Part shown: positions 37,031-64,000 of the stretch, piece after piece
How the letters are laid out: each line of letters starts with the position of its first letter
How positions within the stretch are numbered: the first letter of the stretch is position 1
Assembly: GCF_016411825.1 (NCBI RefSeq)
Contig: NZ_JAEKMH010000001.1
Location: forward strand, 496,001-560,000
Origin: Devosia sediminis
Lineage (GTDB): Bacteria; Pseudomonadota; Alphaproteobacteria; Rhizobiales; Devosiaceae
Reading direction: 5' to 3'
DNA: 64,000 bases
The notes under the pieces: generated by a model
Seen by the model: the letters and a program-made list of their open reading frames with translations, nothing else
What the model was told of the DNA's origin: nothing
Databases searched by the model: none
Translations under genes and position numbers: made by a program

Positions 37031-38428
37031 ATGCGTCACGATTTCAACCCGTTCTCGAAGAGTATTGTCGACATCGTACCCGCCGACCTCGCCGTTCTCA
37101 GGGGCGTGGCAGAGGGGTGGTACGTCGAGTACAAGCGGGAGGTGTCGAATGCGGGCGCCGTTGCAAAGTCCATCTCCGCGTTCGCCAATACCTATGGGGG
37201 ATGGATCTTCTACGGAATTGCGGAGAAGTCCAAGGATGATGCCGTCGCGGGCGAATTCCCGGGCATCCCGCGACAGGAGGCCGACGCCCTGCTGCAGCGC
37301 ATTCGCCAGAGCGCTGCGAACCATATCCAGCCGACGCCGTATTTCGAGGCGAAGGCGCTGTTCGGTCCCGAGCCCGGCATCGGTCTGCCGGAAGATCGCT
37401 GCGTGGTCGCCGTCCGCGTGCCATGGGGCGCGGATGCCCCATTCATCCACAAGGACGGTCGGATCTATAGGCGCGTGGCGGACGGCTCGGAACCGCGTCA
37501 CGAAACGGATCGCCACATGCTCGATCTTCTGTCGGCACGCTCCACCAAGGTCACCGACCATTTCGCGGAATGGACGAACCGCGATCTCGAGACTTCCGAG
37601 GCCGAGGAAGACGTCGCGCATGTCCGCATCTTCCTCATCGCCGATTTCTGGGGCGACCATGAACCCGTGAAGGACGTCCCCATCGGAAAGATCCGGGAGA
37701 TAATGCGGGATACGAGCGGCGACTTCACGCTCTCCTTCGACAACGTCTATCGCGCCACGGGCGCCTATGTCTGCCGACAGGCCCAAATCACCGACCCCCA
37801 GTCCCTGACGCTCACATGGACCCTGCGGACGGACTTCTGCAGCGAGATCGTCGTCCCCCTGCCGAAATTCCGCGGCGGCAATCTCGCGAGCCTGCACGCG
37901 TTGTTCCGGGGATACGATCACGCCGATCGATTCATCGGGCTTTGCCGCCAGCAGCGCTACAAGGATCCGACAGTCATCGACCTGAACCTGCTGATGATCG
38001 TTCTCATGGCGCTGGCCCGGAAGCACCTGGCCTTGGCTAAGGAATTCGGCTGGACCGAGAAGATGTCCGTCAAGATCAGGATAGCAGGCGTGTGGAGGAC
38101 CATCCCCTTCTTCGACGCTACCCATGTGCTGGACGAGTACGAGCAGCACGGACTGGCGCTCAACCTGCGCGACGAAGCGGAGATCCACCCCGGCAAGAGC
38201 CATCACTCCTATTTCGATCTGGCGGCGCCACAGCCCGGAGAGACGGATCAATCCAACGTCATCTGGATCGCAATAGCCCTTTTCGTGCCTATCGCGAGAG
38301 CTCTGGGGGTATCGATGGGGATGGGCGACGAGGAGGACTACGACGCCTTCAAGACATCCATCGTGGATTTCGTCATGGCGGGTCAAAGAGCTATCGGGGT
38401 CCAGAAGACCCGACTCGACCAACGGTGA
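37031..38428 (+). CDS. AlbA_2 (Schlafen-type) domain protein
   Basis: The 465-residue protein begins with an AlbA_2 domain, seen as WYVEYKREVS then ISAFANTYGGWIFYGIAE, the E-x-K and GG-x-x-x-x-GI signature. The remaining 300 or so residues are not recognised. Proteins of this type occur as regulators and in defence contexts, where the domain may bind nucleic acid or act as an RNase. AGGTGCACCC precedes the ATG. It stands alone between metal and nucleotide-metabolism genes. Confidence 0.75.
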   Translation: MRHDFNPFSKSIVDIVPADLAVLRGVAEGWYVEYKREVSNAGAVAKSISAFANTYGGWIFYGIAEKSKDDAVAGEFPGIPRQEADALLQRIRQSAANHIQPTPYFEAKALFGPEPGIGLPEDRCVVAVRVPWGADAPFIHKDGRIYRRVADGSEPRHETDRHMLDLLSARSTKVTDHFAEWTNRDLETSEAEEDVAHVRIFLIADFWGDHEPVKDVPIGKIREIMRDTSGDFTLSFDNVYRATGAYVCRQAQITDPQSLTLTWTLRTDFCSEIVVPLPKFRGGNLASLHALFRGYDHADRFIGLCRQQRYKDPTVIDLNLLMIVLMALARKHLALAKEFGWTEKMSVKIRIAGVWRTIPFFDATHVLDEYEQHGLALNLRDEAEIHPGKSHHSYFDLAAPQPGETDQSNVIWIAIALFVPIARALGVSMGMGDEEDYDAFKTSIVDFVMAGQRAIGVQKTRLDQR

Positions 38429-43092: not shown

Positions 43093-43121
43093 GGCACGAA
43101 GGTTTGCAAGGAGCGATTGCG

Positions 43122-45407
43122 ATGTCGGCAAGGATTGAAACGTCACGCTTCCGTGTCGAGGGCATGGATTGCGCGAGCTGTGCCTCCAAGGTGGATACCG
43201 CTGTGCGACGCCTGCCCGGCGTGGAAGACGTCTCGGTCTCCGTCGTGGGCGCCTCCATGACCGTCAAGCACACGGATGCCGACCTGGGCGCCATCGCCCG
43301 GAAGGTGTCGAGCCTCGGGTACAAGACGGCGCCATTGCCGGCGCGCGGTGCAGGAGCCGACAAGAGCGAGGAGGCTCATGATCATGCCGGTCACGACCAA
43401 TCCGGCCATGACCATGCGGAGCATGATCACTCGGGACACGACCATGCCGACCACGACCACGGCCCGTCGGAAAAGCCGAAGCGGGCCGAGACCCTGTCGG
43501 GTATGCACGGCCACGACCATGGCTTCGAGGACGGACCCTGGTGGCAGTCCTCCAAGGCCAAGCTGACGATCCTGTGCGGCATCGCCGTGGCTCTGGCCTT
43601 CGTCGCCGGCCAGCTCATCCCCGCTATCGCGCAGTGGGTCTTCATCGTCGCCATGTTCGTCGGGCTGATCCCCATCGCCCGGCGCGCCTGGATGGGGGCG
43701 ATCAACGGCAGCCCGTTCTCCATCGAAACGCTGATGACGGTCGCCGCGATCGGCGCCGTCTTCATCAACGCGGCGGAAGAAGCGGCCATCGTGGTACTGC
43801 TCTTCCTCGTCGGCGAACTGCTGGAAGGCGTCGCAACCGGGCGGGCGCGGGCCAGCATCAAGGCACTGGCCAATCTGGTTCCGCGCATCGCGTTGCGGGA
43901 AGCGGGCGACAAGGTCGTGGAAGTGCTCGCAGATCAATTGGCAGTGGGCGATGTGGTCCTGGTTCGACCGGGCGACCGCGTCCCTGCCGATGGCGTCGTC
44001 GTCTCCGGCGACAGTGCCGTGGACGAAGCGCCGGTCACCGGCGAATCCGTGCCCAAGCGCAAGCAGGTCGAGGATCAGGTCTTCGCCGGCACCATCACCC
44101 AGGAAGGCGCATTGCGTGTTCGGGTCACCGCCGCAGCGGCGGACAACACGATCTCGCGCATCATCGCCCTGGTGGAGGAGGCGCAGGAATCCAAGGCGCC
44201 CACCGAACGCTTCATCGACCGCTTCTCGAAATACTACACGCCCGGCGTCATGGTCGTGGCCGCGCTCATCGCCATGCTGCCACCCCTGTTCCTGGGCGAG
44301 CCCTGGAGCGAATGGGTCTACAAGGGTCTTGCAGTGCTTCTGATCGGCTGCCCGTGCGCCCTGGTCATCTCGACGCCCGCCGCCATCGCCGCTGCGCTTT
44401 CGGCGGGTGCCCGTCGCGGCCTTCTCATGAAGGGCGGCGCGGTGCTTGAGCAATTGGGCAAGATCGACATGGTGGCGCTCGACAAGACCGGCACTCTGAC
44501 CGAAGGCAGGCCGAAGGTCACCGATATCATCGGCGTCGGCAGGCCGGAGCGAGAGGTTCTCGCGCTGTCGGCGGCGCTCGAGGTCGGATCGAGCCATCCG
44601 CTCGCCACGGCGATCCTGGCCCGCGCCAAGGCGGACGGGATCGAACCGGCCCGGGCCGACAAGGCCGGTGCGGTCGGCGGCAAGGGCGTGGTCGGCACCG
44701 TGGATGGCAAGGAGTTGTTCCTCGGCTCGCCCAAGGCCGCGGCCCAAATGGCCGGCGTCGCCGGCGATCTGATGACCCGGATCGAAAAGCTCAACGACGA
44801 GGGCAAGACCGCCTCGGTGCTGCTCGTCGACAACACTTTCGCCGGCATCATCGCCATGCGCGACGAACCACGCGACGACGCCCGTACCGGTCTCGCGGAA
44901 ATCAAGCGCCTCGGCGCCGATATCGTAATGCTGACCGGCGACAACAAGCGAACGGCCGCCGCCATCGGCGCGAGCCTCGGCATCGAGCCGCGCGCCGAGC
45001 TGCTGCCGCAGGACAAGCAGCGCATCGTCGGAGAACTCAAGGCACAGGGCCGGATCGTCGCCAAGGTCGGGGACGGCATCAACGACGCGCCCGCATTGGC
45101 CGCGGCGGATATCGGCATCGCCATGGGCGGCGGTACCGACGTGGCGCTCGAAACCGCCGACGCCGCCGTGCTGCACGGCAGGGTGACCGACATCGCCAAC
45201 ATGATGGTCCTGTCGCGGTCCACCATGGCCAATATCGGCCAGAACATCACCATAGCTCTCGGCCTCAAGGCGGTGTTCCTGGTGACGACGGTCATCGGCA
45301 TCACCGGGCTCTGGCCCGCCATCCTCGCCGATACCGGCGCCACCGTCCTCGTCACAGCCAACGCCATGCGATTGCTGGCCTGGAAGGGGATCGGACCACG
45401 TGCATGA
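43122..45407 (+). CDS. P1B-type heavy-metal ATPase (ZntA/CadA/PbrA-like)
   Basis: The 761-residue pump has an N-terminal HMA domain with GMDCASC and a His/Asp-rich segment of HDH repeats near residues 85-115. Eight membrane segments include the transport motif GCPCALVIS, and the phosphorylation loop DKTGTLTEG, SSHPLA and GDGINDAPALAAAD follows. The CPC motif with these features fits the Zn2+/Cd2+/Pb2+ subgroup. AAGGAG lies eight bases before the ATG at 43,122. It heads an operon of six overlapping or nearly overlapping genes. Confidence 0.95.
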   Translation: MSARIETSRFRVEGMDCASCASKVDTAVRRLPGVEDVSVSVVGASMTVKHTDADLGAIARKVSSLGYKTAPLPARGAGADKSEEAHDHAGHDQSGHDHAEHDHSGHDHADHDHGPSEKPKRAETLSGMHGHDHGFEDGPWWQSSKAKLTILCGIAVALAFVAGQLIPAIAQWVFIVAMFVGLIPIARRAWMGAINGSPFSIETLMTVAAIGAVFINAAEEAAIVVLLFLVGELLEGVATGRARASIKALANLVPRIALREAGDKVVEVLADQLAVGDVVLVRPGDRVPADGVVVSGDSAVDEAPVTGESVPKRKQVEDQVFAGTITQEGALRVRVTAAAADNTISRIIALVEEAQESKAPTERFIDRFSKYYTPGVMVVAALIAMLPPLFLGEPWSEWVYKGLAVLLIGCPCALVISTPAAIAAALSAGARRGLLMKGGAVLEQLGKIDMVALDKTGTLTEGRPKVTDIIGVGRPEREVLALSAALEVGSSHPLATAILARAKADGIEPARADKAGAVGGKGVVGTVDGKELFLGSPKAAAQMAGVAGDLMTRIEKLNDEGKTASVLLVDNTFAGIIAMRDEPRDDARTGLAEIKRLGADIVMLTGDNKRTAAAIGASLGIEPRAELLPQDKQRIVGELKAQGRIVAKVGDGINDAPALAAADIGIAMGGGTDVALETADAAVLHGRVTDIANMMVLSRSTMANIGQNITIALGLKAVFLVTTVIGITGLWPAILADTGATVLVTANAMRLLAWKGIGPRA

Positions 45408-56455: not shown

Positions 56456-56851
56456 ATGGCGACCAGACCCAAGCTAGAACCCGATGTCACGCTGGGGGAG
56501 CTGCTGCTCTTGGCGCGGTTGGCGGAATTGCTCTACGACGATGGCAAGGCGGCGCCGGCAGGAGCCTACGGCTCTGAGACGGGAGTCTCGAAAACCCGTA
56601 TCAGGAATGCCTTGTTGCGCATCGAGAGCGCTCTGGGCATTGTAGAAATGCAGGGCGCCGGTCGCCGGACCCAGAAGCCGAACGCATTCGGAAGAAACAT
56701 CGGCAGTGCCGCGCGGCTCGTCGAGCGCCTCATCTATGTAGCCCGCCAGCACGCCACGGATCAGGACAAACTGCATCTAGCCATCCGTACCGCCGAACAA
56801 GGGCTCGAACGGCAATGGCGAGCCGGTGGCTTCGACAAGGCCGCGCCGTGA
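56456..56851 (+). CDS. Unknown protein with winged-helix-like N-terminus
   Basis: The 131-residue protein is not recognised. Its first 70 residues (LGELLLLARLAELLYDDG, then VSKTRIRNALLRIESALG) look like a helix-turn-helix followed by a dimerisation helix, as in LysR-type N-termini. It may be a DNA-binding regulator. The ATG at 56,456 lies after the tandem repeats, and GGAGG sits nine bases upstream. It precedes the methyltransferase by 112 bases. Confidence 0.6.
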   Translation: MATRPKLEPDVTLGELLLLARLAELLYDDGKAAPAGAYGSETGVSKTRIRNALLRIESALGIVEMQGAGRRTQKPNAFGRNIGSAARLVERLIYVARQHATDQDKLHLAIRTAEQGLERQWRAGGFDKAAP

Positions 56852-56963
56852 TGGACGGTTGCGGTCACAATGCCATTCGTCAGGCAAGCTCGCGTCGACC
56901 CTCCATCGTCGCTCCGGCTTGCCAGTCGTTCCGTCGTGCTGTACTCCCGCGCCCGAGGTGAGC

Positions 56964-58001
56964 ATGCCAACTGCGGTCGATATCTTCTGCGGGTCGGGCG
57001 GGGTGACGCAGGGATTGCGCAGCGCCCGATGGCGCGTGTTGGCTGCGTGCGACAACGATCCCGTGGCCACCGCCACGTATCGTGCCAATCACCCCCGCAC
57101 CAAACTGGTCGACGGCGATATCCGGCTGGATGACACCATCGATCGCATCGCCTCAGCTGTTCGCGGGCGAGCCGTCGATCTGCTCGTCATCTGTGCCCCC
57201 TGCCAACCGTTCAGCAGCCAGAACCGGCATCGCGGCGACGACGAGCGCGAACAGCTCATCGTCAGGGCTTTGGCGGTCGCGGAACGGCTGAAGCCTGCCA
57301 TGGTGTTCTTCGAGAACGTCCCTGGGTTGGCGACGCCGACCTATGCATCCATCGTGGCGCAGGTGAGGACGAAACTCGATGAACTGGGTTATGTCGTCTC
57401 CGATCCGCTCCTGAGGGATGCGGCGGATTTCGGGGTGCCCCAGCGGCGACGCCGTTGCATCATGCTGGCGGCCAGAACCCGGGACGCCGTCGATACGTTC
57501 GTCTCCCTGGACATGACGATGCCGAGAAAGACCGTATTCCGTGCCATAGCGGATCTCGAAAGACTGGAATCAGGACAGGCCAGTGCCGAGGATGCGCTGC
57601 ACAGGGCCCGCACTCATCAATCGATAGCGGTCGAGCGCCTCAGGCACATTCCCGCGGACGGTGGTAGTCGATCCAGCCTTCCCGCTCATCTCGAGCTCCG
57701 TTGCCATGTCGGCAAGCCCAGGTCGTTCTCCGACGTGTACGGTCGCATGGCCTGGCAGGACGTCGCGCCAACGCTGACCACGGGATGCACGGACATCACG
57801 CGCGGTCGTTTCGCCCATCCCGAGCAACATCGCGCCATCACCCTGCGCGAGGCCGCGCGCCTACAAAGCTTTCCCAACGATTACGAATTCAGGGGGAATG
57901 ACAGCGACATCGCAAGGCAGATCGGCAACGCCGTGCCGCCGGAGATGATCAAGGCATTCGTTCCGGCCTTCAGGGCGGCCCTGAAGGCCTCGCAGCGTTG
58001 A
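56964..58001 (+). CDS. dcm: C5-cytosine DNA methyltransferase
   Basis: The 345-residue enzyme contains the canonical motifs: I DIFCGSGGVTQGL, IV CAPCQPFSSQN with the catalytic Cys, VI FFENVPG, VIII QRRRRCIML, and a C-terminal IGNAVPPEM. The target-recognition region is between motifs VIII and IX. It methylates cytosine in a specific, unknown sequence. GAGGTGAGC lies before the ATG. Translational overlap with the following vsr gene indicates a modification/repair pair. Confidence 0.95.
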   Translation: MPTAVDIFCGSGGVTQGLRSARWRVLAACDNDPVATATYRANHPRTKLVDGDIRLDDTIDRIASAVRGRAVDLLVICAPCQPFSSQNRHRGDDEREQLIVRALAVAERLKPAMVFFENVPGLATPTYASIVAQVRTKLDELGYVVSDPLLRDAADFGVPQRRRRCIMLAARTRDAVDTFVSLDMTMPRKTVFRAIADLERLESGQASAEDALHRARTHQSIAVERLRHIPADGGSRSSLPAHLELRCHVGKPRSFSDVYGRMAWQDVAPTLTTGCTDITRGRFAHPEQHRAITLREAARLQSFPNDYEFRGNDSDIARQIGNAVPPEMIKAFVPAFRAALKASQR

Positions 58002-58414
58002 CGATCGAACCACCGCCGCCGGCGAACGCCGGCGTCTCGGCTCGGATGCGGCGGCAGCGCACGAGCGATACGCAGGTCGAGCTGGCGGTGCGAAAGGCCC
58101 TGTTCTCCTCGGACGTGCGCTACCGCAAGCACTACCCGGTGCCGGGTCGCCCGCGCCGATCGATTGACATAGCCTTTCCCGGGAAGCGGATCGCCGTATT
58201 CGTCGACGGCTGCTTCTGGCATGGATGCGCCCTGCACAAGACGATCCCCAGGTCCAACGATGGCTGGTGGGCAGCCAAGTTGGAGCAGAACAAACAACGG
58301 GACACGGAAACTACAGCGCTTCTGACTGAGCAGGGCTGGCGGGTCCTGAGGTTCTGGGAGCACGACCGGCTCGAAGACGTCGTCCAAGCGATCCTGAACG
58401 AATTGGCGCGATGA
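57998..58414 (+). CDS. vsr: Very short patch repair endonuclease (Vsr)
   Basis: The 138-residue protein carries the Vsr core: RRQRTSDTQVELAVRKAL, the catalytic region SIDIAFPGKRIAVFVDGCFWHGC and a final RFWEHD. Vsr nicks next to T:G mismatches that arise from 5-methylcytosine deamination, protecting methylated sites. In some restriction-modification loci a Vsr-like nuclease acts as the cutter instead. A TTG start overlaps the methyltransferase stop by four bases. Confidence 0.92.
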   Translation: MTIEPPPPANAGVSARMRRQRTSDTQVELAVRKALFSSDVRYRKHYPVPGRPRRSIDIAFPGKRIAVFVDGCFWHGCALHKTIPRSNDGWWAAKLEQNKQRDTETTALLTEQGWRVLRFWEHDRLEDVVQAILNELAR

Positions 58415-58608
58415 CTTGCAGCACGGAGCCACGTTAGGCGCCCAACGATCTACCTTAGCCTGACCGGGCTCGAATGACCCTCGCTGTTGCCCAATGCCCG
58501 GCGTGATCCCTGTTCTCATGCTCTCATGTGATGACGGCAGGACTATCCCGACTATCATGCGGCCCCTGGATTTCGAGAAGATCCCGCCCCGGCAGGGCGA
58601 TGGGGGCG

Positions 58609-59337
58609 TTACGCGCGGGAAAGACAATCCGCCACCATCCACCGCAACGCCGCAGGCGCTCCCCTCAGAACCACCTCAATATTGGCTTGGGCATCGGATG
58701 AGTTCCTGAATTCCCCGCTCCCGACGGCGAGCTGGTATCTGTCGGATGGCGTCATCAACACCATCAGCGGTCCTCTCCTCGCGTAAAGCTCGAATTGATT
58801 GTTGAAGCGCGCCGATGTGCACCAACGAGTCCCCATTCCCCACCAGCGGGCCGCCGCCTGGCTCTTGAGACGGACCAGCTTCCAGTGTTCGTCGTCGAAC
58901 AACAGTTCACTCTCTGCATATGCCTGGTCGCGTTCCGCCTTCCTCAGGCTCCTCGCACCGAGCACTGTGAGGCGGTTTTCGGCGCAAAGCAGTTCGTCGA
59001 CCGTCTCGAGACGGTTGATATCGCGCATCTCCATAGGAAGATGCGGACGCACATCGTGGAAATGCCGCAAGCCCGAGGATAATCGGTCCATCTCGGCCAT
59101 GCCGCAACAGGTTCGCAGACCGTAGTCGGTCCACCAGCGTCGGCGCCAGGCCGAAAGCCACGTGAAGTATTTGCCTTGCGGAGTCGGATCGCATCCGCAG
59201 ATCAACGTGAAGACGCGCTGCTCCCGCTCGATGCTGAGATACGGGTCGAGCCGTTCGATGCCGGCGCGACGCCAAGCGTGCTGCAGGTGGGAATTCAGGA
59301 CGGCGTCAACTCGTCGTAGGCTCGGTGCTCGGGACAT
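58609..59337 (-). CDS. Unknown protein (WCT-motif type)
   Basis: The 242-residue protein is not assigned. Its second half contains WWGMGTRWCTSARFNNQFELY and then GPLMVLMTPSDRYQLAV, a layout reminiscent of phage and mobile-element proteins of the PcfJ/WCT kind; this is recollection, not a search result. It is transcribed opposite to its neighbours inside the methyltransferase/GHKL locus. About 190 bases without features separate it from vsr, and 269 from the GHKL gene. Confidence 0.6.
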   Translation of the reverse strand: MSRAPSLRRVDAVLNSHLQHAWRRAGIERLDPYLSIEREQRVFTLICGCDPTPQGKYFTWLSAWRRRWWTDYGLRTCCGMAEMDRLSSGLRHFHDVRPHLPMEMRDINRLETVDELLCAENRLTVLGARSLRKAERDQAYAESELLFDDEHWKLVRLKSQAAARWWGMGTRWCTSARFNNQFELYARRGPLMVLMTPSDRYQLAVGSGEFRNSSDAQANIEVVLRGAPAALRWMVADCLSRA

Positions 59338-59606
59338 GCCCAAGCCTGGTCTTCGTTGACGCCGAGGTCGATCCGAATTTTTTGCGGATCCCCGGATTTC
59401 CTCCGCTGGACGAGTTCGCTGAAAGGCAACAGCAACCCGGCGACAATGATCGCGCCCATTGGAGTAATAAGTTGTGTAAGAATTTTCAGCTTAGTTTAGG
59501 GTACAAAAGGATATGGGCCGAATAAGAAAACAATGACGCAGGCGAGGGATAGAGGCGCAGCCCCGGGGCGAGTGTTCTCCAACATACTTTTCGGAGCGTC
59601 CGCATA

Positions 59607-62567
59607 ATGGCACGCATCAAGGTTCGCGCCAGGGCGGTCGACATGCTGGGGCGCCAGCAGATCGCGGGCATTCCAACAGCGGTCCACGAGCTCTTCAAGA
59701 ACGCCCACGACGCCTATGCCGACAACGTTCGGGTCGACTATTTTCGCGCGGACGAACTCTTCATCCTCCGCGACGACGGCATCGGCATGACGCTGGAGGA
59801 TTTCGAGGGTCGGTGGCTGACCCTCGGCACCGAGAGCAAGGTCGGTGCGAACGACCCGGGTAAGCAGCCGTGGACCGGACCTCGCAATGCGACCGCGCGC
59901 GCCATTACCGGCGAGAAAGGTATCGGACGGCTGGCGATCGCCGCTATCGGACCCCAAGTGCTGGTGCTCACGCGCTCCGTTCGTCCCAGCGGTTTGGGAT
60001 CACTTGTCGTCAGCCTCATACAATGGGGCCTATTCGAAATCCCGGGATTGGACCTCGAGGCCATCGAAGTGCCGGTCGTCGAGCTGGAGGGTGGGAAACT
60101 GCCGGATCTCGGCGTGGTGACGGGCCTTGCCGACCGCATCCGCGCCAACATCTGGCAATTGGGCGATCGAATACCCGGTGACATAGGAAAGCGGTTGTTG
60201 TCGGAACTCGACATGGCCGACTTCGACCCGGGCTCCGTCTACGCTCAGATCGACGGACCGACACTGGCCGGCGACGACTTCGGCACGCACTTCTTCATCC
60301 GTCCGACGAACCCGGTGCTGGCGGACGACATAGAGCAATCCGACGACGCCGGCTCGGAGGCCACTCCGTTGGAGAAGATGCTCCTCGGCTTCGGCAACAC
60401 CATGATGCCGCAAGGCGGCGAGCCACCGATATCCGCGCAATTCTGGGATCATCGCGAGGACGGGGTCAGCCGCGACCTCATCGGCGGGTCGGCGTTCTTC
60501 ACGCCCGCCGAGTTCGACTCCGCCGACCACCACATCGACGGCGAGTTCGACGAATTCGGCCAATTCACCGGCACCGTGTCGGTGTACGGCCAGCCGGCAC
60601 GGCAGCACACCATCGTATGGCCGGACTCCACAGGACGTCCGACCGAGTGCGGCCCGTTCCGCCTCCGTTTCGCTTATCTACAAGGATCGCTGAAGGACTC
60701 GCGGGTTCCACCGGACGAATGGGCTCGGCTGAGCGGCAAGCTCAACAAGATCGGTGGCCTGTACGTGTACAGGGACAACATAAGAATATTGCCCTACGGC
60801 AACTCCGACTTCGATTTCGTCGGTATCGAACGGCGGCGCACGAAGTCGGCGCAGGATTGGTTCTTCTCGTACCGGCGCATTTTCGGCGCCGTCGAACTCA
60901 CCCATTCGCGAAACAGCAATCTGGTCGAGAAGGCGGGACGCGAAGGCTTCAGAGCGAACCGTGCCTATCGGGAGATGACCAGTATGCTGGAAAATTTCTT
61001 CGAGCGGCTCGCCATCGACTTCTTCCGCCCCACTTCGCAGTTCGGGTCCGAATTCAACTCGATCAAGGCGGAGATCAACCAGGAGGCCAAGCTGCTGGCC
61101 AAGAGGGCGACCAAGACAAAGGAACGCCAGGCGGAATTCAAGACCGAACTCGATACCTTCTTCACATCCATCGAGAAGGGCGACCCTACCCGGGAAGCCG
61201 AGCGCATCCGCGCGATGACGGAAGAGCGCCTATCGGCAGTGGCGACGATCAAAAGTCCCGAAGCAGCCGCCGACGCGCTCATCAACGCCGAGGCGGATGC
61301 GAGGCGCGCCGTCGCAGCGCTCGAAAAGTCCATCACAGTGGTCAAACCGCGCGCGCTCGGGATGAACAAGTCGCTGACCTCGGATTGGAACGCGTATCAG
61401 CAGAATTCCGAGCGGATCAGACGGGAAGTGGTCATGCCTCTGCTCGTGCAGGTCGAGGAGAGGATCAGCGAGGTTGCGGCTGTCAACGAGATCGACGTCG
61501 ATCGGCGTCGTCGGCTCATCACATCGTTGGAGCAGCGTCGATCGTCGACCGAGAACGAGGCCACCCGTCTCCGTCGCCAAGTCCTCGAACGTACGACGGG
61601 TCTGTCGCAGCAGGTCGACACAATGGCGAGAAAGGCCCTGGAGCGCATGGCATCCGGGTTCGACCTGATTTTCGCCGAAGTCGGTCGGACCGATATCTCC
61701 GACATGTCGGAGTCGGATTTGACCCATCTACAGCGGGGATGGGAGAATCGGGCGGACGTTATCGCCAAGGATGCCCGGGACCTGCTCGAAGCACTCGGCG
61801 AACAACTGGTGTCACTCACAGGGGCGGTCGCGGAAGGCGGAACCCTCGACGCGACGACCGCCGCATTGGAAAGTCGTGCCGATGCCTTGGAAGAGCAGTT
61901 GGACATGTACTCGGAGTTGGCACAATCCGGCATGGCGATCGGGATCGTCCAGCATGAATTCGCCAATACGGTGAAACGAATCCGCACGGCCATCGCCCAG
62001 TTGCAACCCTGGGCGTATGGAACGTCCGAAATCCGTGAGATACGGGACGACCTGAGCGATGGCTTCGATCATCTCGATAGTTACCTCACCTTGTTCACGC
62101 CCTTGAGTCGGAGACTACACAGGAAGCCCGTGGAACTCTCGGGCGAGGAGATACGGAACTATCTTTTCGAGGTGTTCAACGACCGGCTCCGCCGCCACGA
62201 CATCAAGTTGGTGGCCACGCCGGCGTTCCGCAGCAAGGTGATACTGGCTTTGCCTCCCATCATCCTGCCAAGCTTCGTGAACATCGTGGACAACGCCATC
62301 CACTGGATCACGACCGTGCCGGGCGGGGAACGCGAAATCCTTCTCGATGCGGACGAGGATCTATTTCTCATCTCCAACAGCGGCCCCGGCATCCCGTTGC
62401 GCATCGCGGACCGCATCTTCGAATTCGGCGCTACGGAGAAGATAGGCGGACGGGGAATGGGGCTGTTCATCGCGCGTCAGGCGCTGCGCTCGAACGGCCT
62501 GGACCTAACATTGCAGGCAGCGGGCGAGAACGTCAGACCGCAGTTCGCGATCGGTCCAAGGGAATAA
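59607..62567 (+). CDS. Dual GHKL ATPase: MORC/MutL-like N-terminus and histidine-kinase-like C-terminus
   Basis: The 986-residue protein starts with a MutL/MORC/Hsp90-type ATPase: AVHELFKNAHDAYA (E28, N32), RDDGIGM (D56-G60) and TGEKGIGRLA (102-110). A middle region with long coiled-coil-like helices spans roughly residues 480-740. The C-terminus is histidine-kinase-like, with a possible phospho-acceptor His783 in QHEFANTV, N-box NIVDNAIHWI near 892, ISNSGPGI and GRGMGLFIAR near 948. Two ATP-binding modules in one protein are unusual. It is followed 15 bases later by a receiver-like gene, implying phospho-relay. Confidence 0.85.
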   Translation: MARIKVRARAVDMLGRQQIAGIPTAVHELFKNAHDAYADNVRVDYFRADELFILRDDGIGMTLEDFEGRWLTLGTESKVGANDPGKQPWTGPRNATARAITGEKGIGRLAIAAIGPQVLVLTRSVRPSGLGSLVVSLIQWGLFEIPGLDLEAIEVPVVELEGGKLPDLGVVTGLADRIRANIWQLGDRIPGDIGKRLLSELDMADFDPGSVYAQIDGPTLAGDDFGTHFFIRPTNPVLADDIEQSDDAGSEATPLEKMLLGFGNTMMPQGGEPPISAQFWDHREDGVSRDLIGGSAFFTPAEFDSADHHIDGEFDEFGQFTGTVSVYGQPARQHTIVWPDSTGRPTECGPFRLRFAYLQGSLKDSRVPPDEWARLSGKLNKIGGLYVYRDNIRILPYGNSDFDFVGIERRRTKSAQDWFFSYRRIFGAVELTHSRNSNLVEKAGREGFRANRAYREMTSMLENFFERLAIDFFRPTSQFGSEFNSIKAEINQEAKLLAKRATKTKERQAEFKTELDTFFTSIEKGDPTREAERIRAMTEERLSAVATIKSPEAAADALINAEADARRAVAALEKSITVVKPRALGMNKSLTSDWNAYQQNSERIRREVVMPLLVQVEERISEVAAVNEIDVDRRRRLITSLEQRRSSTENEATRLRRQVLERTTGLSQQVDTMARKALERMASGFDLIFAEVGRTDISDMSESDLTHLQRGWENRADVIAKDARDLLEALGEQLVSLTGAVAEGGTLDATTAALESRADALEEQLDMYSELAQSGMAIGIVQHEFANTVKRIRTAIAQLQPWAYGTSEIREIRDDLSDGFDHLDSYLTLFTPLSRRLHRKPVELSGEEIRNYLFEVFNDRLRRHDIKLVATPAFRSKVILALPPIILPSFVNIVDNAIHWITTVPGGEREILLDADEDLFLISNSGPGIPLRIADRIFEFGATEKIGGRGMGLFIARQALRSNGLDLTLQAAGENVRPQFAIGPRE

Positions 62568-62582
62568 TCGGGGGAGTACAAG

Positions 62583-64000
62583 ATGGCTCAGGCCGCCAAC
62601 GCGTTTCAGGACTATCGGTTGTCGGGGGTGCGACGGTTCCTGCAGACTGCCGTCGTCATCGACAACGAGGCGGAGATGCGAGCCGTCCCGGCACCGTCGA
62701 CCGAGCCGAAGGTCGCAGTGCGCAAGCCTGCCGGCGTGCTGAAACAAGAACCGGCCTCCGCTGCGGCGCAGCCCGAGTCGGATGAGGTACCCGCCGTCGA
62801 GCCCGTGCCCGAAGCCGGGAAACAAAATGCCCCCCTGCACAGCGCAGCAGGCAGCTTGAATGCCAAGCTCCTGACCGATGCCTTCTCGGAGAGGGAGATC
62901 ATCTGCGGGCTTTATAGGCCGGAGCCCGGCGAGAACATGGTGTCGTTGGCGACGAACGCAGCCAAGCACGCCGACGTGGTGGTCGTGGACTGGCTGCTGG
63001 AGAACAATTCCTCGGTGAAGGCCGTGGAGATCATCATCGCGATACTCAAGGACGACATCTCGGGCAATGGCAGGCTACGCCTGCTGTCCGTCTACACGTC
63101 CCAGAACGGCGTCTCCGTGATCGCGAAGGAACTGTTCGATCAGATCGTCGCCGTCCCGGAGCTGGCCGACAAATTTACCCTGTCGGGGGTGGCGATCGTC
63201 GGCGCCAACGTCCGCATCTGTGTGCTGAGTAAACCCCAGTCGATCGGGGATGACGACGTCGAGAAGGTGAGCGAACAGGACCTGCCCGAACGCCTTCTCA
63301 AGGAGTTCGTGCACCTCTCCGCCGGTCTGCTGACCAGTTTCGCCTTGCACTCCATCTCCGCCGTGAGACGATCCGCCCACCACGTCGTGGCGGTGTTCGG
63401 CGAGGAACTGGACGGCGCTTATCTGGCCCACCGGTCGACACTAGTCGATCCCGACGAGGCCGTGGAGTTCGCGATCAACCTGCTCCTGGGCGAGCTGCAG
63501 AATGCGATAGCGGTCGATGAAAGGCTTGACGGCCAGATCGGTTCGGACGTGCTGAATTCATGGGTGGACGTCAAGAGCGTCTCCCATAAGTTCGTGAAGG
63601 GCGGCGCCGAGGCCTCGCCGGAAATCGTCAAGGAGTTCGTTGTCGGTGGATTCGCCAAGCTGAAGGCGACCAAGGACAAGCTGACAAAAGCGGACGGCAC
63701 CGCCGCCGAAGGTGGTCTCGGCGGACACAACGTCGGGGAAGTATTCTACGCAAGCGCCGCGGACGCATGGCAGAGGCAGATCGAGTTCGCCAGGCTGAGC
63801 GCCTTCAAGCGAGAGGCTTACGGGCGAACCCGGTTGCCGCAAGGTTGGCTCCCTACGTTGACGCTCGGGTCCGTCCTCAAGGTTAGAGGCCCGAAGAACG
63901 AGGCCGAGAAGCCGAACTACGATGATCTGGGCGCCAACTATCTGGTGTGTATGCAGCCGAGATGCGACAGCGTGCGCCTTGCGGGAGCGACGGGCTTCCC
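62583..64000 (+). CDS. Receiver-like protein paired with the GHKL protein (partial, runs off window)
   Basis: At least 472 residues are visible and the gene continues past 64,000. The start resembles a receiver beta-1 with its acidic pair (TAVVIDNEAE, D27). A Pro/Ala/Glu-rich insertion covers residues 33-90 or so. DVVVVDWLLE follows with phospho-acceptor candidate D136, then LLSVYTSQNG. This order matches a response-regulator receiver split by a disordered insertion. The remaining 300 residues are of unknown family. It lies immediately behind the kinase-like gene and should be its partner. Confidence 0.75.
   Translation, partial: MAQAANAFQDYRLSGVRRFLQTAVVIDNEAEMRAVPAPSTEPKVAVRKPAGVLKQEPASAAAQPESDEVPAVEPVPEAGKQNAPLHSAAGSLNAKLLTDAFSEREIICGLYRPEPGENMVSLATNAAKHADVVVVDWLLENNSSVKAVEIIIAILKDDISGNGRLRLLSVYTSQNGVSVIAKELFDQIVAVPELADKFTLSGVAIVGANVRICVLSKPQSIGDDDVEKVSEQDLPERLLKEFVHLSAGLLTSFALHSISAVRRSAHHVVAVFGEELDGAYLAHRSTLVDPDEAVEFAINLLLGELQNAIAVDERLDGQIGSDVLNSWVDVKSVSHKFVKGGAEASPEIVKEFVVGGFAKLKATKDKLTKADGTAAEGGLGGHNVGEVFYASAADAWQRQIEFARLSAFKREAYGRTRLPQGWLPTLTLGSVLKVRGPKNEAEKPNYDDLGANYLVCMQPRCDSVRLAGATGF

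Follow-up and report, generated by a model that had tools for sequence, protein, structure and literature searches.

A proposed restriction-modification-type locus of Devosia sediminis with a HEF_HK/Response_reg_2 kinase-receiver pair and a candidate nuclease partner

The closest described relative of the locus reported here is the two-component-like gene pair HEF_HK (PF19191)/Response_reg_2 (PF19192), published by Bellieny-Rabelo et al. 2021 (PMC8011034). According to the passages of that paper drawn on here, the two genes are linked in 91.6% of 644 regions, the triple-domain order is the commonest (174/222), upstream C5 methyltransferases are frequent, Vsr genes occur in 20 genera, several kinds of nuclease domain and several unnamed neighbour groups are reported, and the proteins show kinship with the paraMORC ATPases; the authors speculate that the domains join signalling that controls restriction-modification (R-M) systems. 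We analyse such a pair in Devosia sediminis, in a window of 64,000 nucleotides (the whole stretch under analysis, bases 496001-560000 of contig C8, genome 4.1 Mb) and its continuation: a histidine kinase-like protein (HK) with two GHKL modules and a receiver protein (RR), in the company of a C5-cytosine DNA methyltransferase (MTase), a Vsr mismatch endonuclease and a protein that we call X. The triple domains, the adjoining receiver gene, the conserved His/Asp/Thr/Lys residues and the C5-MTase neighbourhood that mark the published system are all present, and the domain order (group 1 of the paper), the Vsr neighbourhood and the paraMORC kinship are likewise the same. Relative to the published pair, the locus adds X, which could be one of those unnamed neighbour groups, a 244-residue open reading frame (ORF) between vsr and the HK gene, and a probable 48-kb mobile island. 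The original prediction, made from the letters of the window alone, had spoken of a possible new defence locus and had itself raised the possibility of an already described system with the same architecture. The latter is what we find, since the pair, its domain order and its C5-MTase/Vsr neighbourhood are already in print (PMC8011034), which together with the Pfam matches rules out a novel kind of locus; what survives of that interpretation is the pair and its tie to the MTase.

Several other described systems share parts of this architecture. The MORC/paraMORC R-M operons, in the part of Iyer et al. 2008 (PMC2292703) used here, likewise place an N-terminal GHKL ATPase beside a cytosine methylase and Vsr, with predicted nucleases nearby; in contrast, our locus has no Z1 helicase and its ATPase is fused to a kinase module with a receiver partner. 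A distant relative of X (L039) is found close to genes of this kind. In VcSduA, a Shedu protein with a GHKL head, that ATPase head is proposed to control a PD-(D/E)xK nuclease, much as we propose here, as far as the passages drawn on from PMC12137116 describe it, but VcSduA holds both in one protein, whereas here the ATPase and the candidate nuclease are separate and a phosphorelay would lie between them. The parts used of a BREX survey (PMC12839542) make no mention of GHKL or paraMORC, and GrwAB was rejected as a match, being a DUF262 system in what we drew on of its description. The BbrUII/HgiDII restriction enzymes (NF050001) have a similar N-terminal GHKL stretch, a likeness limited to HK residues 5-123 (E 1.1e-14; 53.9 of the 550 bits required). 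Neither PADLOC nor NCBIfam has a model of the HK/RR pair; in PADLOC, RR and X are without any model, and HK draws nothing beyond weak matches to restriction-enzyme heads. A literature search, made mostly outside the subscription journals, found no experimental test of the pair, including of any anti-phage function. Detocs, a phage defence system with two-component signalling and an effector gene of the PNP-domain type, resembles the pair in its signalling; a Pfam scan of eight locus proteins found no purine-nucleoside-phosphorylase domain, and no helicase domain of the Z1 or any other type, the latter as already noted from the sequence.

The HK-like protein carries, in order, an N-terminal MORC/MutL-type GHKL ATPase (HATPase_c_3, residues 24-124), a middle region, a HEF_HK DHp domain with H783 (773-839, E 6.7e-24) and a C-terminal HATPase_c domain (891-969), all three matches lying above the Pfam cut-off, so that the two modules predicted for this protein are confirmed. 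H783, N892, N896, G926, G950 and G952 are invariant in all 27 aligned kinases, and the N-terminal ATP-binding residues E28, N32, D56, G58, G60, G105 and G107 are invariant in 26/26, the one further row being gapped. The receiver gene starts 15 bases downstream of the HK gene, as first described, and its product matches Response_reg_2 at 98.9 bits against a cut-off of 27. D27, D136, T172 and K217 are invariant in 11/11 receivers of group A, and D33, D34, D102 and T135 in 11/11 of group B. Furthermore, a receiver relative (L050), modelled from 17 sequences at a mean predicted local distance difference test (pLDDT) of 70.8, resembles receiver domains in its N-terminal part; these dominate the list, with AdeR best (Z 11.8 over 131 residues, root-mean-square deviation 3.0). 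The receiver domain filled the VIA match list, so that the C-terminal domain of RR was barely probed there. Neither X nor RR found a meaningful counterpart when solved structures were searched with profiles, and nothing in a viral fold library scored better than E 0.001. The domains and the conserved pairing bear out an ATPase fused to a kinase module with a dedicated receiver, and the intact phosphorelay residues support a dedicated kinase-receiver pair in which phosphotransfer is predicted; the further idea that sensing of DNA state could feed a phospho-signal fits these residues, with both sensing and phosphotransfer standing as predictions.

The association of this pair with the MTase, held at first to be one of proximity only, proved to be much more than that. 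HK, RR or X served to choose the loci; the MTase played no part in the choice. HEF_HK was found in 8 of 136 genomes of the family, and Response_reg_2, at E 0.001, in 12 of 397 genomes of the order and 11 of 398 of the phylum, two sets that overlap; one order genome (G495), with Response_reg_2 below cut-off, was left out of the fetched set. The 42 loci compared comprise the window locus, 24 genome loci, one plasmid, two named genomes and 14 viral-contig loci, these last being the ones with full-length kinases from a viral HK scan that gave 111 relatives and 79 loci kept (L066 is cut off). L058 and L059 look like one system spread over two contigs and are both counted, and L015, near-identical to the window block, is counted here and left out of the Mantel tests. 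For L018 and L043 the receiver gene in this table was assigned by its position; in these two loci and L044 one Pfam model or both gave no match where a scan was made, the L018 kinase having been found by HEF_HK.

An MTase gene is present in 40 of the 42 kinase/receiver loci, being absent from L018 and L043, and in 36 it is encoded on the same strand, no more than 113 bases from HK or RR, either directly or via Vsr. In the window block and L015 the 244-residue ORF intervenes, in L033 a broken vsr stands between, and in L056 the MTase is convergent; in most tabulated loci the MTase gene is contiguous or overlapping with that of HK or RR, in operon-like fashion. Vsr is found in 22/42 loci (21 tabulated, plus the broken copy of L033, found by tblastn), a count that excludes the Vsr match adjacent to a second MTase of L025, apart from the pair. 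Pairwise distances of HK and RR correlate at r=0.98 in both group A (11 loci) and group B (10 loci). For HK and MTase the coefficient is 0.81 across 24 loci, and 0.84 and 0.62 for the 11 loci of group A and the 10 of group B, respectively; 0/5000 permutations were as high. The co-occurrence of MTase, GHKL and receiver genes that had been suggested as a check is thus seen across unrelated genomes, and because the same gene cluster recurs in them chance is excluded and the link exceeds proximity. The scattered occurrence of the cluster speaks for its transfer in one piece, though shared descent may contribute. Nor does the pair proper occur mostly without MTase, as had been considered. A broader survey of viral contigs covered 62 additional loci whose dual-GHKL proteins are shorter (mostly 700-800 residues, HEF_HK membership not established), and an MTase was seen in 38 of them. 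On the viral contigs L070-L133, this shorter dual-GHKL family is in many cases followed by receiver-like genes of about 440-480 residues with the same CD motif as the C-terminal domain of RR.

The locus runs off the window, as had been noted, and extension of the sequence past 64,000 brought into view the end of the receiver gene at 64349 and, beyond it, the convergent gene of X, with 74 bases between them. X matches no family of Pfam, PADLOC, NCBIfam or PHROGs, a Pfam hit of one piece at E 5.3 being taken as chance. Its residues R357-E358, T392-D393-x-D395 and Q410-L411-K412 are invariant in 8/8 rows of an alignment in which one row is a 99% copy; in an 11-row alignment the D and QxK columns hold in 11/11 and E358 in 10/10, one fragment not reaching E358. 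This is the E-D-(E/Q)xK pattern of PD-(D/E)XK nucleases, in the QxK form of Mrr. With hhalign, Mrr (0.5-4.2%) and NERD-type (3.7%) profiles were the best of ten, with D and K columns in register; as controls, Mrr scored 19% against NERD and 1.25% against MazF. The three nearest relatives of X found outside the island copy, from Mesorhizobium xinjiangense (50%), a plasmid of Rhizobium sp. TAL182 (45%) and Taklimakanibacter lacteus (39%), all adjoin a kinase/receiver pair. On the TAL182 plasmid, the closest plasmid match, X is broken by IS66 and adjoins Vsr, C5 MTase, receiver and kinase genes. In the other two it adjoins a dual-GHKL protein and a receiver-like gene assigned by position and residues; the kinases are shorter (720 residues) with no HEF_HK match and the receivers have no Response_reg_2 match, and since these neighbours miss the Pfam models X appears to follow a wider branch of the pair. 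Because all three nearest outside relatives adjoin such a pair, X is a candidate nuclease arm of the locus, on motif and neighbourhood.

We propose that this is an R-M-type locus of the HEF_HK/Response_reg_2 kind in which a soluble His-Asp phosphorelay governs the cutting arm, and we put the probability of this reading at roughly 45%. As in type II R-M, a DNA MTase is present. X, with its nuclease-like motif, is a candidate for the cutting enzyme. From its family, the C5 MTase would mark host DNA, and Vsr would repair the T:G mismatches left by deamination of 5-methylcytosine. The N-terminal MORC/MutL-type GHKL module of HK would bind ATP, dimerise on DNA and sense foreign or unmethylated DNA. 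This signal would reach H783, which the C-terminal kinase domain would phosphorylate, and the phosphate would then move to D136 of the receiver, the residues for both steps being intact. Via its conserved C-terminal domain the phosphorylated receiver may then activate or recruit a nuclease, here X, a place that HNH or Mrr-type genes might hold in a few other loci. In L024 a Mrr_cat gene, above cut-off, directly follows RR, and in L023 an HNH gene, just below cut-off, does so; HNH_5 in L016 and HNH_2 in L025 both fall below cut-off. Taken in full, the model would be one of phosphorelay-licensed restriction, in which a MORC/MutL-type clamp-kinase senses unmodified DNA and the receiver switches on exchangeable nucleases, the X family included, with the linked C5 MTase protecting the host, a fuller version that we consider less likely than not. 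If the proposal is true, DNA cutting would here be gated by a two-component phosphorelay, a device that ordinarily controls genes, and restriction would be subject to a checkpoint that costs ATP. The role of a pair described in 2021 becomes testable in this locus, with X as a concrete candidate output.

A number of points weigh against this proposal. Phosphorylation, cleavage and effects on phages are predictions here, and common descent may account for part of the distance correlation. The likeness of X to Mrr and NERD is not significant, and against Vsr, likewise a nuclease, X scores 0.08% with hhalign; its fold model, made for a relative, is poor (pLDDT 45), and the order of elements fits in part. 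X is present in only 5/42 loci, two of these being copies of one island, which rules it out as a universal companion of the pair. The Mrr_cat of L024 is the sole nuclease domain above cut-off in the 30 neighbour genes scanned, of 66 listed from other loci, and many loci are without an evident cutting partner. Moreover, distant relatives of X (L037-L042, 19-24% identity in the 8-row alignment) are found without the pair. Vsr accompanies the relatives in L037 and L038, joined by a TrwB/HerA-like ATPase in the former and by an ORF of the same size in the latter; the one in L039 is near Z1, AIPR, HATPase_c_3 (GHKL) and Vsr genes, the one in L040 has a DUF87 ATPase and no Vsr match beside it, the one in L041 lies among unassigned genes, and in L042 a GmrSD gene is found at a distance of about 3 kb. 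Several of these settings are R-M-like, and the X superfamily thus extends beyond the pair. A scan of viral contigs with one X alignment gave no relative, and with another gave one prophage-like copy without the pair. That copy (L134, 3505-5250) lies beside tail-like and umuC-like ORFs, recognised by eye, and is a candidate for single-gene defence.

The pair might instead tune the expression or activity of the MTase/R-M genes and have no direct part in cutting, which is the direction in which the discoverers' speculation on signalling that controls R-M systems points, as given in the passages used from PMC8011034. The overlapping or abutting, operon-like arrangement of the MTase gene with HK or RR in most loci would suit such a role, but Pfam recognises no DNA-binding output domain in the receiver protein, X recurs, and a 986-residue ATPase with a MORC-like head would be costly for mere regulation, although this last is an argument and not data. 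We consider this reading unlikely.

Comparably doubtful is a reading in which the HK/RR pair does the work of the effector and acts by abortive infection: a toxin-like, MazF/PemK-like barrel at the C-terminus of RR would be released by phosphorylation, and X would be a separate defence gene on the same island. The C-terminal domain gives this some footing, being homologous between receiver groups A and B (hhalign 98.7%), with a C-x4-C-D and an R-x-G motif that are invariant or nearly so (C456, C461-D462 and R565-x-G567 in 11/11 of group A), and the Foldseek matches to the RR model include MazF chains at a probability of 0.75-0.91; that a nuclease partner is seen in few loci would also be expected. 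However, the MazF matches have E-values of 0.13-0.35 and none of the 778 matches falls below 0.001, profiles against 21 PemK-family proteins reach at most 1.1%, the domain has no Pfam match up to E 10, the L043 receiver gene is without the CD motif, and the tight MTase linkage would be left unexplained. For an assignment of the domain to MazF/PemK, Foldseek gives a hint that the sequence profiles do not bear out. Finally, that Dcm-Vsr and the pair are chance neighbours, each independent cargo of a defence island, is very improbable, for although 1192 bases with an opposite-strand ORF part vsr from the HK gene in the window and the block is island cargo, the MTase is present in 40/42 loci, abutting in 36, its distances correlate with those of HK, and the same linkage is in print in the passages used from PMC8011034.

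The features of the locus are collected in Table 1. The MTase and vsr genes overlap by 4 bases, and their overlap and family assignments are as predicted, with Pfam and NCBIfam matches for both; the mechanical ORF of the MTase spans 56826-58001, and the ATG at 56964 is closely preceded by GAGGTG. Directly upstream, a 131-residue frame (56456-56851, + strand) looks helix-turn-helix-like by eye and could be a controller gene; it has no Pfam match. Pfam, PADLOC, NCBIfam and PHROG yield no family for the 244-residue ORF, which among 28 clustered loci is present only in the window locus and the shared island copy L015. It contains a GMGTRWCT stretch. Promoter and terminator scans did no better than on shuffled sequence.

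Table 1. Features of the locus in window coordinates; those beyond 64000 lie in the continuation L002 (window coordinate = L002 coordinate + 53999).
Feature	Coordinates	Strand	Basis
C5-cytosine DNA MTase, 345 residues from ATG	56964..58001	+	Pfam DNA_methylase E 1e-57; TIGR00675 dcm 148.2 bits, cut-off 100.65
Vsr mismatch endonuclease, 138 residues	57998..58414	+	NCBIfam TIGR00632 vsr 112.1 bits, cut-off 97.85; Pfam Vsr E 5e-18
244-residue ORF between vsr and HK gene, no family match	58609..59343	-	ORF call
HK-like protein, 986 residues, dual GHKL	59607..62567	+	Pfam HATPase_c_3, HEF_HK, HATPase_c
Receiver (RR-like) protein, 588 residues	62583..64349, past window end at 64000	+	Pfam Response_reg_2 PF19192 E 5e-28
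Protein X, 544 residues, outside window	64424..66058 (L002 10425-12059)	-	ORF; predicted PD-(D/E)XK-type nuclease
315-residue ORF, outside window	66228..67175		ORF call
HEPN/AbiU2-family gene, further defence candidate, island right end	67318..68079 (L002 13319-14080)	-	Pfam E 2.3e-18
tRNA-Met, outside window	68339..68414		

Most of the scanned neighbour genes of the other loci have no assignment or are apparently unrelated to the pair. L016 also carries an AbiJ_NTD4 gene and L027 a Fic gene. A family of about 190-213 residues recurs next to the receiver gene in L017, L026, L028 and L043, with no Pfam match in the four members scanned.

The DNA from 20349 to 68452 in window coordinates (L002 14453) shares 99.66% identity across 48,106 bases with part of the genome of another species of the genus (G062), and among the matches listed the flanks show 76-87% identity, in opposite orientation. 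Matches to rve, TniB and HTH_17 lie at the left end, those to rve and HTH_17 just below cut-off; short TGAGTCGA-type repeats are found at both ends, and the right end adjoins the tRNA-Met. These features suggest a Tni/Tn7-like element that has probably moved recently with the locus as cargo, its ends being putative. Other cargo (34774-56422) includes by Pfam a heavy-metal P-type ATPase (43104-45407) and a Schlafen/AlbA_2 protein (37031-38428) and, by eye, cation-efflux and multicopper-oxidase-like genes.

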